Positions 1 through 56,293 of a DNA stretch of 64,000 bases are shown here, in pieces. This DNA comes from Tupaia tana (lineage: Eukaryota > Chordata > Mammalia > Scandentia > Tupaiidae). Position 1 is the stretch's first letter. Each line of letters starts with the position of its first letter. The stretch spans positions 90,299,475 through 90,363,474 of the forward strand of contig JAKSZU010000002.1 of assembly GCA_026018925.1 (NCBI GenBank). Direction: 5' to 3'. A program made the position numbers and the translations under genes. The notes under the pieces are model-generated. The model was given only the letters and a program-made list of their open reading frames with translations. It made no database searches and was not told the origin of the DNA.

Positions 1-253
1 GGACCAGCAGATGGTGTAATGGTTAAGTTGTTGGATTCCCACATAGTCGACACAAGTTTGAGTCAGGGACTCACAGCTTAAAACACACGGACAAGTATGT
101 GTATGTGCCCAAAATCCTGAGAGGAGAATGAAGGAGAAGCGATTGTGGCATGACCATGCCCCCTGGGTAGAGATTTCTTGCTTTCTGTCTCTCTGGTGAG
201 TGCATGTGCCCTATAGCAAAAATCTCTCTTTTGAGAAAGGGAAAGAAAAGGAT
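1..253 (+). repeat. tRNA-derived SINE, L-type
   Basis: Begins with the SINE head GGACCAGCAG at the window edge and runs through the tRNA-like head, the GAGGAGAATGAAGGAGAAG middle module and the end module CCCTATAGCAAAAATCTCT into an A/G-rich tail. The B box is decayed (AGTTTGAGTCA), so this is a moderately old copy. Its upstream TSD lies outside the window. Confidence 0.85.
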
Positions 254-39159: not shown

Positions 39160-39246
39160 TCTGTGCGTATGAAAGCAAGAAATCACCCCTCAGTGGGGAT
39201 GGCCATGCCACAATCCCCTCTCTTCCATTCTCCTCTCAGGATTTTT
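39160..39246 (-). repeat. L-type SINE, 3' part, split by HAL1
   Basis: ATCACCCCTCAGTGGGGATGG, CCACAATCCCCTCTCTTCC and ATTCTCCTCTCAGG are the middle module in reverse. The same SINE resumes at 42142 with its head. The A tail and end module are missing. Confidence 0.85.
39230..39246. repeat. TSD of the HAL1 element, left copy
   Basis: CTCCTCTCAGGATTTTT is repeated at 42142-42158. The T end merges with the element's tail, so the exact boundary is ambiguous by a few bases. Confidence 0.9.
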
Positions 39247-39251
39247 TTTTT

Positions 39252-39695
39252 ATTTCAGTTTATTTATTTGCATTCATTCACTGAACATCATTACAGCATA
39301 CAAAATGAGATTTTCCATCCAAAGTACACTATATATTGTCTCAATCAAGCACATCAACAAACATGTTATTGTCAGCAAATGATCTTCCATTTCTTGTCTT
39401 CTGTATGTTTTGCTTTCCCCCCCCCCATCCTTGATTCCCTATCTCCTACCCTCTCCCATCTCCCACTCTCCTCCCACACTGTCTCTGGTATCTATGTTTG
39501 CTTTCTATACTGTTTTCTCCTCACATTTTATTGTATCGCCAAAGACCCTGATCAATCCAAATACCCTCATAGCAAACACAGGTGATACCCACATTTCCAT
39601 GAACACAAGTCTTACTTTACGCATCCTATAAAGTAGCACCTAGCTGTGGCTACATATCCTACTACAGTCATTAAATAGATATATATTTTTTTTCT
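39252..39695 (-). repeat. HAL1 3' UTR, distal module
   Basis: Contains GCATACAAAATGAGATTTTCC, a polypyrimidine run with CCCTATCTCCTACCCTCTCC (G-rich on the element strand) and GTCTCTGGTATCTATG. Each has a counterpart in the proximal module at 39700-39965. G-rich polypurine tracts are common in mammalian L1 3' UTRs. A 193-codon plus-strand ORF over this region is antisense and low-complexity, not a gene. Confidence 0.75.
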
Positions 39696-39699
39696 GAAA

Positions 39700-39965
39700 C
39701 TATTTTTTTTGTAACTCAATTTACATTCCTTCCCTAAGCTTCATCACAGCATACAAAATGCAATCTCCCATCCAGTACACACTGCATAGTGACACAATCA
39801 TGCACATTACAAAAAATTTTCCATTACTAGTTCCTAGAATTACTTCCACCCCTCTTTCTGACCCTCTGTCCCTTCCCATCCTCTTCTCACACCACCTCCG
39901 GTGTCTACAATTGTCCTTCATTCCCTTCCCACCCACATTGCATTGATCACACAATTTCCTACATA
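39700..39965 (-). repeat. HAL1 3' UTR, proximal module
   Basis: CACAGCATACAAAATGCAATC, CCCATCCAGTACACACTG, CCCTCTGTCCCTTCCCATCC and CACCACCTCCGGTGTCTAC parallel the distal module in the same order. This indicates an old tandem duplication. Confidence 0.75.
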
Positions 39966-40249
39966 ATCTAACTACTTTCAATGGTGAGTTCACTCATTAC
40001 TACTAAGAAAACCAGTTTTAACTTAACTCAAAGAAGTGCCAAGGAACTTTGCTTAAAGCCAGGAAACAAGTTAGGATTCTGTTCAAATGGAAGGTGCATG
40101 AACCTATCAGTTCCATGTACTTTTATCTTCTGTTCTGGTTCAATTTTCCTGATTAAATTCTGGGATATAATATTCAACTCCAGACTTGTCCCGATGATTA
40201 AGTTGGCCACTTTCATAGTTTTTGGACTCTTATTCCCATGTGTCTGTGT

Positions 40250-41251
40250 TTAATTTTCTTGATACAACACACCCTTGAGAACTTCTTGGAGATCTGGTCT
40301 GGTGCTGGTAAATTCTTTCAGGTTTTGTTTATCTGAGAATGTTCTTGTCTTTTCTTCCCACCTGAAAGATAATCTTGCCGGGTACAGTATTCTTGGCTGA
40401 AATTGCTTCTCTCGTAACACTTTGAATATATTTTCCCATTCTCTCCTCACTCGCATTGTTTCTGATGAGAGATCTGCTGTTAGCCTGATGGGATGTCCTT
40501 TGTAGGTAACTTGATGTTTCTCTCTTGCCAATCTTAGTATCTTGTCTTTGTCTGCGGTTTTGGTCAACCTGGCTATAATGTGTCTTGGAGAAGATCTTCT
40601 TGGGTTGATTCTATTTGGGGTCCTTTGTATTTCCTGGGACTGGATCTTCAAATGCCTCTCTAGGTTTGGAAAGTTTTCTTGCAGGATTTCATGGAATAGA
40701 TTATCAATGCCTTTATGGGTCTCTTCACCTTCTGGAATGCCAATTATCCGGATATTTGGACGTTTGATGGTATCCAGTACTTCTTGCATATCATTCTCAA
40801 ATTTTGGGGCCATTTTCTCAGTCTTCGTGGTGGATTTTTCTAAGCCAGCCATTTTCTCTTCTACATCTGAGATTCTATTTTCTGAATGATCTAGTCTGCT
40901 TTTAATACTTTCAAGGGAGATTTTGACTTCTTGTATTATAGCCTTCATCTCTAGCAGTTCCTTTTGAGTCTTTTGTAAAGTGTGTAATTCCTCTTTTAGA
41001 TCTTGCAAGAATTTCCTCATCTCCTGGAACTCAGTAACTTCTTTCTCCTTTCTCTTTAGCACTTCATTATCTCTCTTTTCTTCCATCTCTGTTAGCTTCG
41101 ACATTATGAATGCTCTAAATCCCTTATCAGACATTTCCATGAATTTCACCAAACTGCTTGTGGATGAAGGAGAGTTACTCTTTTCCATTGGAGGAGAGGT
41201 ATTTTCTCGTTTTCCCATATTTCTCGTGATCCGACGGTGATTTCTTGTCAT
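40250..41251 (-). CDS. LINE-1-type ORF1 protein of a HAL1 element, intact
   Basis: A 333-codon uninterrupted frame, close to the 338 residues of human L1 ORF1p. Order seen: a basic, Ser-rich N-terminus (residues 1-35); a charged heptad-like coiled coil (about 50-155, with many Glu/Lys/Leu and ending near EEKMAGLEKS); an RRM-type domain beginning NIRIIGIPEGEE (about 170); and a C-terminal domain with PRHIIARLTK, KGHPIRLTADLS, RREWENIFKVL and QPRILYPARLSF. These are the conserved RNA-binding stretches of mammalian ORF1p, including the paired arginines of RREW. ORF1p normally trimerises on its RNA as a chaperone. The start at 41251 is the first ATG of the frame; another Met lies 11 codons in. 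No ORF2 follows, so the reverse transcriptase must come from elsewhere. Confidence 0.9.
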   Translation of the reverse strand: MTRNHRRITRNMGKRENTSPPMEKSNSPSSTSSLVKFMEMSDKGFRAFIMSKLTEMEEKRDNEVLKRKEKEVTEFQEMRKFLQDLKEELHTLQKTQKELLEMKAIIQEVKISLESIKSRLDHSENRISDVEEKMAGLEKSTTKTEKMAPKFENDMQEVLDTIKRPNIRIIGIPEGEETHKGIDNLFHEILQENFPNLERHLKIQSQEIQRTPNRINPRRSSPRHIIARLTKTADKDKILRLAREKHQVTYKGHPIRLTADLSSETMRVRREWENIFKVLREKQFQPRILYPARLSFRWEEKTRTFSDKQNLKEFTSTRPDLQEVLKGVLYQEN

Positions 41252-41499
41252 CAGATGGATGGTATGTTTCTTTCAAATTCTTGAAGTTAAGCCTCAATGT
41301 TCAGGAGAAAGCAGACAGAGGTGTTCCAGAATCTGTTTGCTGTTCTGTTGTAATCGCACACTAGCTTTGCTTGCTGGAGGCTGAATTATGAGTAGAAAAT
41401 CTTCATTTCTCCTGTCCCCTGAAATATCTAGTTCCCAGTAGCCATGCGGAATCCTCTGAAGGAAGGGCTCAACTCTCCTCGGTTCCAGAGGTCTTGCTC

Positions 41500-41796
41500 T
41501 TAACGCTGGGATATACTGCCTCTTGCTTTAACTGTTTGGTTCACTCTGCATTGACAACTAATGGACAGGTCAAGCTGTGTTCTTAGATCCCAACACGGCA
41601 GGATGTTAATGTGAGCATAAGTAAATTGTGCTAAATTGGTCTGCCCTCCTCCATCCGGGTTCAGCAGAGGCAGCCATCCTGCAAAAGCGAATTTCTGAGC
41701 AGGTGGACCACGTGAATTCTCTGAGCCGGGGGTCAGTCTGCCCAAGGCATTGGAACCCAGCCACCACCAAGGGCTCCAAGAAAGCAGTAATTGCAA
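41500..41796 (-). other. Upstream ORF in the HAL1 5' UTR (98 codons)
   Basis: Open on the element's sense strand between the 101-codon uORF and ORF1. Trp-rich start, no recognised domain. It may be fortuitous. Confidence 0.3.
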
Positions 41797-41825
41797 ACGG
41801 CTCAGCAGGTGCCTGGCCTGGTTTC

Positions 41826-42131
41826 TTATTGCTCCTGTAGGTCCTTAGGGGTCTCCTTCAGATTCCACTTTCCCACACAAAGTTGCTGATGATCGGGTCT
41901 GTTCTCCTGGCAGGGTAAGTCCCATCGATGAAACAATACTGCTTCTGTTGCCTCCAACCTCAGGAGCTCAAATTTTCCTGAAAGTGGGGTCTCGGTCCTG
42001 AGACCATCACCCACACAGCGGTTCTTCACCGGTCTTTCACCTCCTTTGCTGCGCTGGCGAACCGTTTTATCGCGTCCGCGCGCCGTTCTTCTGCGCCCGA
42101 GCGCTGGCGCATTGTTCTTCTGCGCCGGCAT
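41826..42131 (-). other. Upstream ORF at the HAL1 5' end (101 codons)
   Basis: Its ATG lies about ten bases from the element's 5' end, so it would be the first AUG of a full-length transcript. The product is strongly basic in its first half (MPAQKNNAPALGRRRTARGR). No family recognised. It could be a true small protein, a translational regulator or chance. Confidence 0.35.
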
Positions 42132-42141
42132 TCAGTTCTGC

Positions 42142-42275
42142 CTCCTCTCAGGATTTTTGACGTGCACCCACATGCCTCCAGTGTGAGTTTCAAGCTGCCA
42201 AGTCTGGGACTCGAACCATAGTTGGCCAAGTGGGAATCCGGCAACATAACTATTGTGCCATCTGCTAGTCCCAGC
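42142..42275 (-). repeat. L-type SINE, 5' part, split by HAL1 (includes right TSD)
   Basis: Starts with the right TSD CTCCTCTCAGGATTTTT. The reverse strand reads GGGACTAGCAGATGGCACAATAG, B box GGTTCGAGTCC, GGCAGCTTGAAACTCAC and CATGTGGGTGCACG. It completes the SINE begun at 39160. Confidence 0.88.
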
Positions 42276-44941: not shown

Positions 44942-45629
44942 TCTGAATATCTTTTTTTTTAAGAGAGTTCAGACGTTCTAATTTTTTTTAATTTATTTAT
45001 TTACATTCATTCACTGTACATCATGACAACATAAAAAATGAGATTTTCCATCCAGAGTACACTGTATATTGGCTCAATCAAGCACATCAACATACATGTT
45101 ATCGTCAACAAATAATTTTCCATTTCTTGTTTACTATGTTTTGCTTTTTTTTTCCTCGTCCTTGATTCCCTATCTCTTACCCTCTGCCATCTCCCACTCT
45201 CCTCCCACACTGTCTCTGGTATCTATGTTTGCTTTCATACTGTTTTCCCCCACATTTTATCAAGTCACTAAAGATCTTAATTAATCTAAATGTTTCCATA
45301 GCAAGCACAGCTGATATATGCATTTCTATGAACACAAGTCCAACTTTAGGCATAAGCCTCAGTGAGTAGAATGAACATCCTATAAAGTAGCACCTAGCTG
45401 GGGCTATATAGCTTACTGCAGTCATCAAATAGGTATTTTTTTTTCTGAAACTTTTTTTTTCAACTTAATTTACATTCTTTCCCTAAGCATCGTCACAGCA
45501 TACAAAATGTGATTTCCCATCCAGAATATACTACATAGTGGCTTAATCATGCATATTATTATCACAAATTTTCCATTTCTAGTTTCTAGAAATTTTCACC
45601 CCTATTTCTGACCTTCTGAATATCTTTTT
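44942..45629 (-). mobile_element. 5'-truncated HAL1 3' UTR copy with TSD
   Basis: TSD TCTGAATATCTTTTT at 44942 and 45615. The body (44982-45614) matches the two-module 3' UTR of the element at 39242: ATTCATTCACTGTACATCATG, GTCTCTGGTATCTATG, then GCATACAAAATGTGATTTCCC. It stops within the proximal module, so ORF1 is absent. Between two A runs (element strand) lies a 21-bp foreign stretch at 44961-44981. Confidence 0.85.
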
Positions 45630-55718: not shown

Positions 55719-55733
55719 AAGAGTTATATAGGG

Positions 55734-56000
55734 AGGGACTAGCAGTTAGCGTAATGGCTATGTCGCTGGACTCCCACGTAGTCGACCGCGGTTCGAGTCC
55801 CGGACCCGGCGGCTTAAACTCACGCCGGGCGCGTGTGTGTGCGTGCCCAAGATCCCGAGAGGAGAATGGAGGAGAAGGGATTGCGGCGTGGCCATCCCCC
55901 CTGGGGGGTGATTTCCTGCTTTCTGTCTCTCTGTCTCTCTCTGTCTGTCTGGCGAGCGCACGCGCCCTATAGCAAAAACCTCTCCAAAAAAAAAAAAAAA
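55734..56000 (+). repeat. tRNA-derived SINE, L-type, young, left of a same-site pair
   Basis: GGGACTAGCAGTTAGCGTAATGG, B box GGTTCGAGTCC and a near-consensus body with CpGs intact and A17. TSD AAGAGTTATATAGGG at 55719-55733 and 56001-56015. Confidence 0.97.
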
Positions 56001-56011
56001 AAGAGTTATAT

Positions 56012-56293
56012 AGGGAACCAGCAGTTAGCGTAATGGCTATGTTGCTGGACTCCCACGTAGTCGACCGCGGTTCGCGTCCCGGACCTGGTGGCTTACAACT
56101 CACGCCGGGCGCGTGTGCATGCGTGCCCAAGATCCCGAGAGGAGAATGGAGGAGAAGGGATTGCGGCGTGGCCATCCCCCCTGGGGGGTGATTTCTCGCT
56201 TTCTGTCTCTCTGTCTCTCTCTGTCTGTCTGGCGAGCGCACGCGCCCTATAGCAAAAAAAATAACCTCTCCGAAAAAAAAAAAAAAAAAGAAA
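56012..56293 (+). repeat. tRNA-derived SINE, L-type, young, right of a same-site pair
   Basis: AGGGAACCAGCAGTTAGCGTAATGG, B box GGTTCGCGTCC (56069-56079), near-consensus body and AACCTCTCCG with A tail. Flanked by AAGAGTTATAT at 56001 and 56294. Confidence 0.97.

Follow-up and report, generated by a model that had tools for sequence, protein, structure and literature searches.

An apparent retrocopy of a spliced host-HAL1 transcript in the genome of Tupaia tana

Passages of PMC5322556 describe HAL1 elements as L1-dependent retroelements that encode only open reading frame 1 (ORF1), carry a poly(A) tail and target-site duplications (TSDs), and rely on L1 enzymes. HAL1 arose several times independently in mammals, according to a portion of PMC5753468, and it is mentioned also in parts of PMC4859970 and PMC4161310. 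In SVA_F1 and pt_SVA_D6, as a section of PMC6139936 relates, a GC-rich first host exon (of MAST2 and STK40, respectively) was spliced onto a non-autonomous retroelement, and the product was retrotransposed. We analyzed a stretch of 64,000 nucleotides from Tupaia tana (assembly GCA_026018925.1, contig JAKSZU010000002.1, positions 90,299,475 to 90,363,474 of the forward strand), hereafter called the window, which holds a HAL1-type element of 2,895 bp on its minus strand (39247-42141). This window copy appears to have arisen by retrocopying of a spliced transcript of host exons and HAL1, that is, by spliced 5′ transduction, and its ORF2-less junction is, judging from the copies compared below, the mark of a recently active, multi-copy family of the HAL1 type.

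Structure and origin of the window copy

Element coordinates run 5′ to 3′ along the element, position p corresponding to window position 42142 minus p. The element is bracketed by an exact 17-bp TSD, CTCCTCTCAGGATTTTT, found at 42142-42158 on the 5′ side of the insertion and at 39230-39246 on its 3′ side. ORF1 (40250-41251, minus strand) is uninterrupted over 333 codons, and its product contains an RNA recognition motif (PF02994, E 5.9e-33) and a C-terminal domain (PF17490, E 7.3e-22) in Pfam and aligns with human ORF1p (2ykp) over residues 114-332 (E 1.3e-64). The stretch downstream of ORF1 measures 1,003 bp and ends in a short A tail. In these respects the original prediction, which had been made from the letters of the window and had listed a perfect TSD, an ORF1 with all expected ORF1p blocks, a region of about 1 kb past ORF1 and an A tail, was borne out. 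An ORF1 protein is thus encoded, ORF2 is lacking, the ORF2-less junction is multi-copy, and an A tail and TSDs are present, as is characteristic of HAL1.

The 890 bp upstream of ORF1 had been taken for a CpG-rich 5′ untranslated region (UTR). The length is correct, but only the first 150 bp or so are rich in CpG (18 CpG, observed/expected ratio 1.33, against 0.53 over all 890 bp), and element positions 1-661 are host exons. All genome-wide searches were run on the window's own assembly (G000, 2.95 Gb); a search with element 1-664, in which 23 of 23 candidates were scored, mapped this segment in order and on one strand to contig C242, with exon identities of 97-100%. Exon E1 (41886-42141, minus strand like all features of the element; element 1-256), with its CpG-rich start, matches C242:6,523,628-6,523,883 at 97% and is followed by a GT donor in the source. 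Exon E2 (41757-41885; element 257-385) lies within a match of element 255-387 to 6,522,828-6,522,960 (100%), E3 (41679-41756; element 386-463) within a match of 385-464 to 6,486,109-6,486,188 (98.8%), and E4 (41641-41678; element 464-501) within a match of 461-501 to 6,485,973-6,486,013 (100%), each with an AG acceptor and a GT donor in the source. The 5′ part of E5 (41481-41640; element 502-661), behind an AG acceptor, extends up to the HAL1 insertion point of the source locus, element 498-664 corresponding to 6,483,236-6,483,402 (99%).

All four source introns have GT-AG ends, and all four are gone from the window copy. Donor and acceptor read ATCATCAG/GTATGA and TCTTTTAG/CAACTT for intron 1 (E1-E2), GGCTGG/GTAAGT and CTACCCAG/GTTCC for intron 2 (E2-E3), TTTGCAG/GTACCC and TCTCTCCAG/GATGG for intron 3 (E3-E4), and GAGGGCAG/GTGGGC and CATTTGCAG/ACCA for intron 4 (E4-E5). 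Immediately behind E5 on C242 stands the HAL1 of locus L009. This locus and L010, the copies nearest to that of the window, share it unbroken only from element 498 on. In both, HAL1 starts at about element 662 and is preceded by a target-site repeat of its own, AAGACCTCTGGAAC. This word recurs after the HAL1 tail, and the window copy preserves it at 41482-41495 (minus strand), as a relic of the TSD that the older HAL1 insertion had made in the source exon. Two paralogues on C242, at 2.65 Mb and 17.26 Mb, pass the insertion point without HAL1 and thus represent empty sites. The five ordered exons, the removal of the introns and the empty paralogous sites together argue that the window copy derives from a spliced host-HAL1 transcript, with host exons joined at splice sites before the element. 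Its HAL1 part has 15 mismatches to L009 versus 23 to L010, the tree of copies pairs it with L009 (support 98), and the window copy is the only exact occurrence of an E4-E5 junction tag in the genome. The start of E1 probably corresponds to the transcription start region of the host locus. Since the leader is mostly spliced host sequence rather than the CpG-rich 5′ UTR of the family, "full-length HAL1" is the wrong label for this copy.

The donor host unit is multi-copy on C242, between 2.6 and 17.4 Mb. Its copies include two pairs of exons 1 and 2 near 5.44 Mb, and its first exon is CpG- and repeat-rich. Neither of the two ORFs read in the host-exon part had a Pfam match up to E = 1; the unit may be a gene that has been duplicated and is either non-coding or evolving fast. 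We considered, and rejected, an identity of C242 with the X chromosome, which would have made the host unit a member of an X-linked testis family. MAGE genes, which cluster on the X, gave 26 matches, 22 of them on C1197 and none on C242, so that C242 is probably an autosome.

A second chimera was found at locus L011 on C275, which has its own 14-bp TSD and an intact ORF1 and ends at the HAL1 tail. Its parts follow each other in the order E1′-E2′, about 320 bp, E1-E2 and E5-HAL1. The E1′-E2′ pair matches the paralogue at 5.445 Mb (99.4% and 100%) and the E1-E2 pair the one at 5.437 Mb (98.6% and 100%), while E5 and the start of HAL1 match L009 at 99.8% and L010 at 99.5%. Mismatches in the HAL1 body number 20 against L010 and 22 against L009, L011 and L010 form a pair in the tree (support 100), and the E2-E5 junction tag occurs a single time in the genome. 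As L011 and the window copy use different exons of different paralogues, they represent two separate events. No chimera subfamily was found: of the 23 candidates, all scored, those outside C242 were limited to the window copy, L011 and two that matched weakly, at 79% and 76%.

An ORF2-less L1 family and a spliced C242 host-HAL1 transcript very probably account for the window copy between them. An L1 would have lost ORF2 from just past its start, giving rise to a HAL1-type family; this family, its ORF1 intact and its 5′ UTR carrying tandem monomers, would then have spread recently in the host mammal. One HAL1 would have inserted, in sense orientation, in the last exon of the host transcription unit on C242; the region would have been duplicated thereafter, and finally a spliced transcript retrocopied. 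Such a transcript would have started in the CpG-rich first exon, been spliced over four introns and terminated at the poly(A) site of HAL1, and the chimeric RNA would have reached the window locus by target-primed reverse transcription with a 17-bp duplication. The family, the junction, the exon order, the splice-site sequences, the empty paralogous sites and the TSD can be read in the DNA, and from them we infer the chimeric transcript. The reverse transcriptase would be the ORF2 protein of co-resident L1s acting in trans, and ORF1 protein made from the element's own RNA would assist its mobilization.

A weighty competitor, to which we give somewhat less than an even chance, is that the window copy is an ordinary processed retrocopy of a HAL1-containing host transcript and that its HAL1 part was irrelevant to mobility. 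This explanation agrees with a spliced host-HAL1 origin and differs from our account in the role given to ORF1 and to the HAL1 3′ end. L1 is known to retrocopy ordinary mRNAs, which favors it, as does the finding that neither chimera has visible offspring, each junction tag occurring once. On the other side, both chimeras have an intact ORF1, both end at the HAL1 tail, and two events started from one duplicated unit, observations that argue for a contribution of HAL1 without proving that it mattered. At the opposite pole is a more speculative and on balance doubtful idea, namely that the ORF1-only lineage keeps an ORF1 protein selected to capture L1 ORF2 protein in trans, and that landing in host exons makes mobile chimeras with their own RNA chaperone, which repeatedly try host first exons as 5′ ends.

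The reading first put forward, a full-length HAL1 with its own CpG-rich promoter of 890 bp, has become very improbable. It would fit the perfect TSD that encloses the entire unit, the intact ORF1 and the CpG-rich head, but element 1-661 is low-copy and equals five intron-separated exons on C242, and other copies carry tandem monomers or begin at a monomer edge. The family's own 5′ UTR carries tandem monomers of 123-125 bp, about nine of them in L028, and many copies begin behind a TSD near element 662-685, close to the monomer edge. The native 5′ UTR left in the window copy (41252-41480, minus strand) likewise starts from the edge of a monomer of about 123-125 bp. TSDs of at least 13 bp flank 32 of 40 copies, compared with 7 of 200 mismatched control pairings. 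They mostly start with A-rich words, as would be expected from the L1 endonuclease, the rule used to find them having favored such words.

The ORF1-only family and its two-ORF relatives

A search with the whole element, in which the best 40 of 9,170 candidates were scored, yielded the window copy and 39 others. With identities of 96-99%, all 39 run unbroken from ORF1 to the 3′ end, share the same ORF1-to-3′ UTR junction and have no ORF2. Because a whole-element ranking favors contiguous copies, tag counts were used in addition. An 18-base tag that marks the end of ORF1 has 3,448 exact occurrences (1 for the reversed control), and a 22-base tag past the deletion junction has 2,332 (control 0). 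We then took the first 100 listed ORF1 tags, in contig order, and asked for the junction tag on the same strand 150-260 bases further on, the expected spacing being 202; it was present at the expected distance in 51. The first 20 of the remaining 49 sites were fetched, and 19 of these read on into the HAL1 3′ UTR (84.6-96.7%), the other being broken near element 1973 by an apparent nested insertion. Altogether 70 of the 71 sites checked among the 100 fit the ORF2-less junction, and at none of the 71 did ORF2 lie between the ORF1 tag and the 3′ UTR. Related copies with ORF2 in that place had been named at the outset as what would reduce the element to a single deleted L1. The alternative of a lone L1 with ORF2 deleted, and no ORF1-only family, accounts for the remnant of an ORF2 start described below, which bespeaks a two-ORF ancestor; faced with the same junction in 39 other copies and 70 of 71 tag sites, it retains hardly any probability, and the prediction of an ORF1-only family stands.

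At locus L018, a HAL1 is inserted in an older HAL1 whose flanking pieces are 87% and 81% identical, a further sign of a long-lived ORF2-less lineage. ORF1 protein searches of viral contigs and genome contigs gave 2 and 24 pattern matches, respectively, among which no relative was confirmed.

Intact two-ORF L1s coexist with the HAL1 family in this genome. L048 and L049 have both ORF1 and ORF2 open, their ORF2 frames counting 1,290 and 1,343 codons, and a search for the reverse transcriptase domain (best 150 of 24,721 candidates scored) placed 65 of the 150 in frames that run for 1,290 codons or more without a stop. ORF1 of HAL1 is 62% identical to that of L048 and 67% to that of L049. The DNA alignment between HAL1 and the two-ORF L1s extends across the spacer into the start of ORF2 and then fades, with GTG replacing ATG; in the window copy, this spacer and ORF2-start remnant, delimited by alignment to L048 and L049, occupy 40154-40249 (minus strand). 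At the protein level the remnant matches the N terminus of L049 ORF2, whereas its best short match in L048 ORF2 lies elsewhere in the protein, and the residues past the remnant scored no higher against ORF2 than shuffles did. The remnant indicates descent from a two-ORF L1. It also means that the initial statement that nothing resembles ORF2 was nearly right, the spacer and the first 20 or so ORF2 codons being still recognizable. Compared with L048 and L049, the HAL1 3′ UTR gave no blastn match at 1e-3 and a single nhmmer match with E 8.2.

Several points weigh against the account given so far. That a transcript would start in E1, be spliced and end at the poly(A) site of HAL1 is deduced from the DNA. 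L011 can be assigned to a parent with less confidence than the window copy can: identity alone is indecisive, the assignment to L010 relies on the tree and the upstream exons, and the approximately 320 bp between its exon pairs have no assigned source. As for the family, the 40 copies scored of 9,170 were picked by similarity to the window copy, which favors contiguous ones; the tag test covers the first 100 sites in contig order, and 51 of the 71 sites checked were judged by tag spacing rather than by read sequence. Finally, the HAL1 3′ UTR can be aligned to neither L048 nor L049.

The 3′ UTR of the window copy (39247-40153, minus strand), which ends in the short A tail, contains an internal duplication. 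Two diverged copies of one unit lie at 39692-39980 (about element 2162-2450) and 39247-39569 (about element 2573-2895), with 75% identity over the best 102 bases, and the duplication is present in most fetched copies. The first unit is also A-rich at its end, as if two 3′ ends had fused early. A second, older and 5′-truncated copy of the HAL1 3′ UTR is located at 44982-45618 (minus strand; 80% identity to element 2274-2893). The span of this truncated copy, 44942-45629, is bracketed by AAAAAGATATTCAGA, and about 20 additional bases between its first and second A-runs resemble a short 3′ transduction.

Age of the insertion and selection on ORF1

In an ORF1 protein search, the best 121 of 88,337 candidates were scored, the window copy included, and the proportions that follow describe this set and not the family at large. 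No stop interrupts 119 of the 121 matches, and 37 rows share an E value of 2.5e-201 and a score of 676.9 bits, so they probably represent one protein. Three intact ORF1s on C111, at 29.59, 33.77 and 66.45 Mb, all have the ORF2-less junction tag. The 333-codon ORF is open in 21 of the 39 fetched copies, and 15.6-19.7 open ORFs would be expected from intact parents with neutral decay along each copy's own terminal branch, at assumed indel-to-substitution ratios of 0.10 and 0.06. In the tree of copies, the terminal branch of the window copy is 0.41%, the median being 0.7%. The stop-free matches and the short branch uphold the earlier suggestion of recent activity.

Aligned to its source over 2,892 bases, the window copy shows 25 mismatches, of which 13 are at CpG. 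They divide into 10 in 660 bases of exons (8 at CpG) and 15 in 2,232 bases of HAL1 (5 at CpG), and 7 of the 8 mismatches in E1 are at CpG. The mismatches outside CpG would make the insertion roughly a million years old, at a substitution rate of around 2.2e-9 per site per year. A copy this young explains its open ORF without selection on the copy itself. It also leaves next to no room for retention of this ORF1 by the host as a gene, which the open ORF might suggest, the copy being too young and the 118 other scored matches being stop-free as well.

The original prediction had posed purifying selection on ORF1 or a very young insertion as the two possible reasons for an intact ORF. The second holds for the window copy; the first was examined in the lineage, by comparing variants found in one copy with variants shared between copies, stops being counted as nonsynonymous. 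Singletons comprised 99 nonsynonymous and 63 synonymous variants and 9 stops, and variants in at least two copies comprised 30, 25 and 4, respectively (p 0.53). Once CpG sites were removed, the nonsynonymous-to-synonymous counts were 86 to 51 (plus 8 stops) for singletons and 12 to 17 (plus 0) for shared variants (p 0.022). With variants in at least four copies, p was 0.54 for all sites and 0.38 without CpG. One of the four tests therefore pointed to selection, and the other three did not. With a transition bias of 4 to 6, neutrality predicts about 2.4-2.6 nonsynonymous variants per synonymous one, and the singletons are also below this value.

Older copies provide a second line of evidence. 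Five of the 19 contiguous fetched tag sites have a 3′ UTR distance of 0.12-0.14 from the window copy (maximum, 0.142). If half of that distance represents the surviving lineage, and with an assumed indel ratio, the chance that an unconstrained ORF1 stayed open is about 0.0002-0.002. The existence of old ORF2-less copies and this low chance of survival make purifying selection on ORF1 likely at the level of the lineage, a view toward which the tests above point without settling it. Between HAL1 and L049 ORF1, nonsynonymous divergence (dN) is 0.17 and synonymous divergence (dS) 0.93, values that include the time before the loss of ORF2 and are similar to those between L048 and L049 (dN 0.17, dS 1.11).

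Elsewhere in the window, at 55719-56291, two near-identical tRNA-like short interspersed element (SINE) copies lie head to tail, with a period of 280 and 93% matches. A similar word precedes each copy, and by its structure the pair is a putative young tandem or nested SINE insertion.

Comparison with known systems

HAL1 elements and spliced 5′ transductions are each known, and the window copy combines the two in a new way; a literature search, which covered few subscription papers, found no report of a HAL1 with spliced host exons. The presence of many intact ORF1 copies beside intact L1s makes the role of ORF1 testable, and raises the question of whether ORF1 protein from an ORF2-less RNA helps that RNA to compete for ORF2 protein.

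Like the HAL1 of other mammals, the family described here is L1-derived and multi-copy, encodes only ORF1 and has a poly(A) tail and TSDs. It differs from described HAL1 in its recent activity, as seen in the stop-free ORF1 matches and the 37 that share one score, in its tandem-monomer 5′ UTR and in a 3′ UTR unlike that of L048 and L049. With these two-ORF L1s it shares a homologous ORF1, the spacer and the start of ORF2, whereas their ORF2 is open and their 3′ UTRs cannot be aligned to its own. Intron loss, an A tail and a TSD are features that the window copy has in common with processed retrocopies, but the RNA copied here would have been a host-HAL1 chimera with an intact ORF1. The resemblance to SVA_F1 and pt_SVA_D6 lies in host exons spliced before a non-autonomous element and retrotransposed together with it. 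In contrast to both, the window chimera has five exons of a duplicated locus and an element that codes for ORF1, and the parts were joined via the acceptor site of the HAL1-bearing host exon; in contrast to SVA_F1, each HAL1 chimera was found once, with no visible subfamily. The two chimeras thus offer a young example of a non-autonomous L1 relative gaining host exons by splicing, in parallel with SVA in apes.

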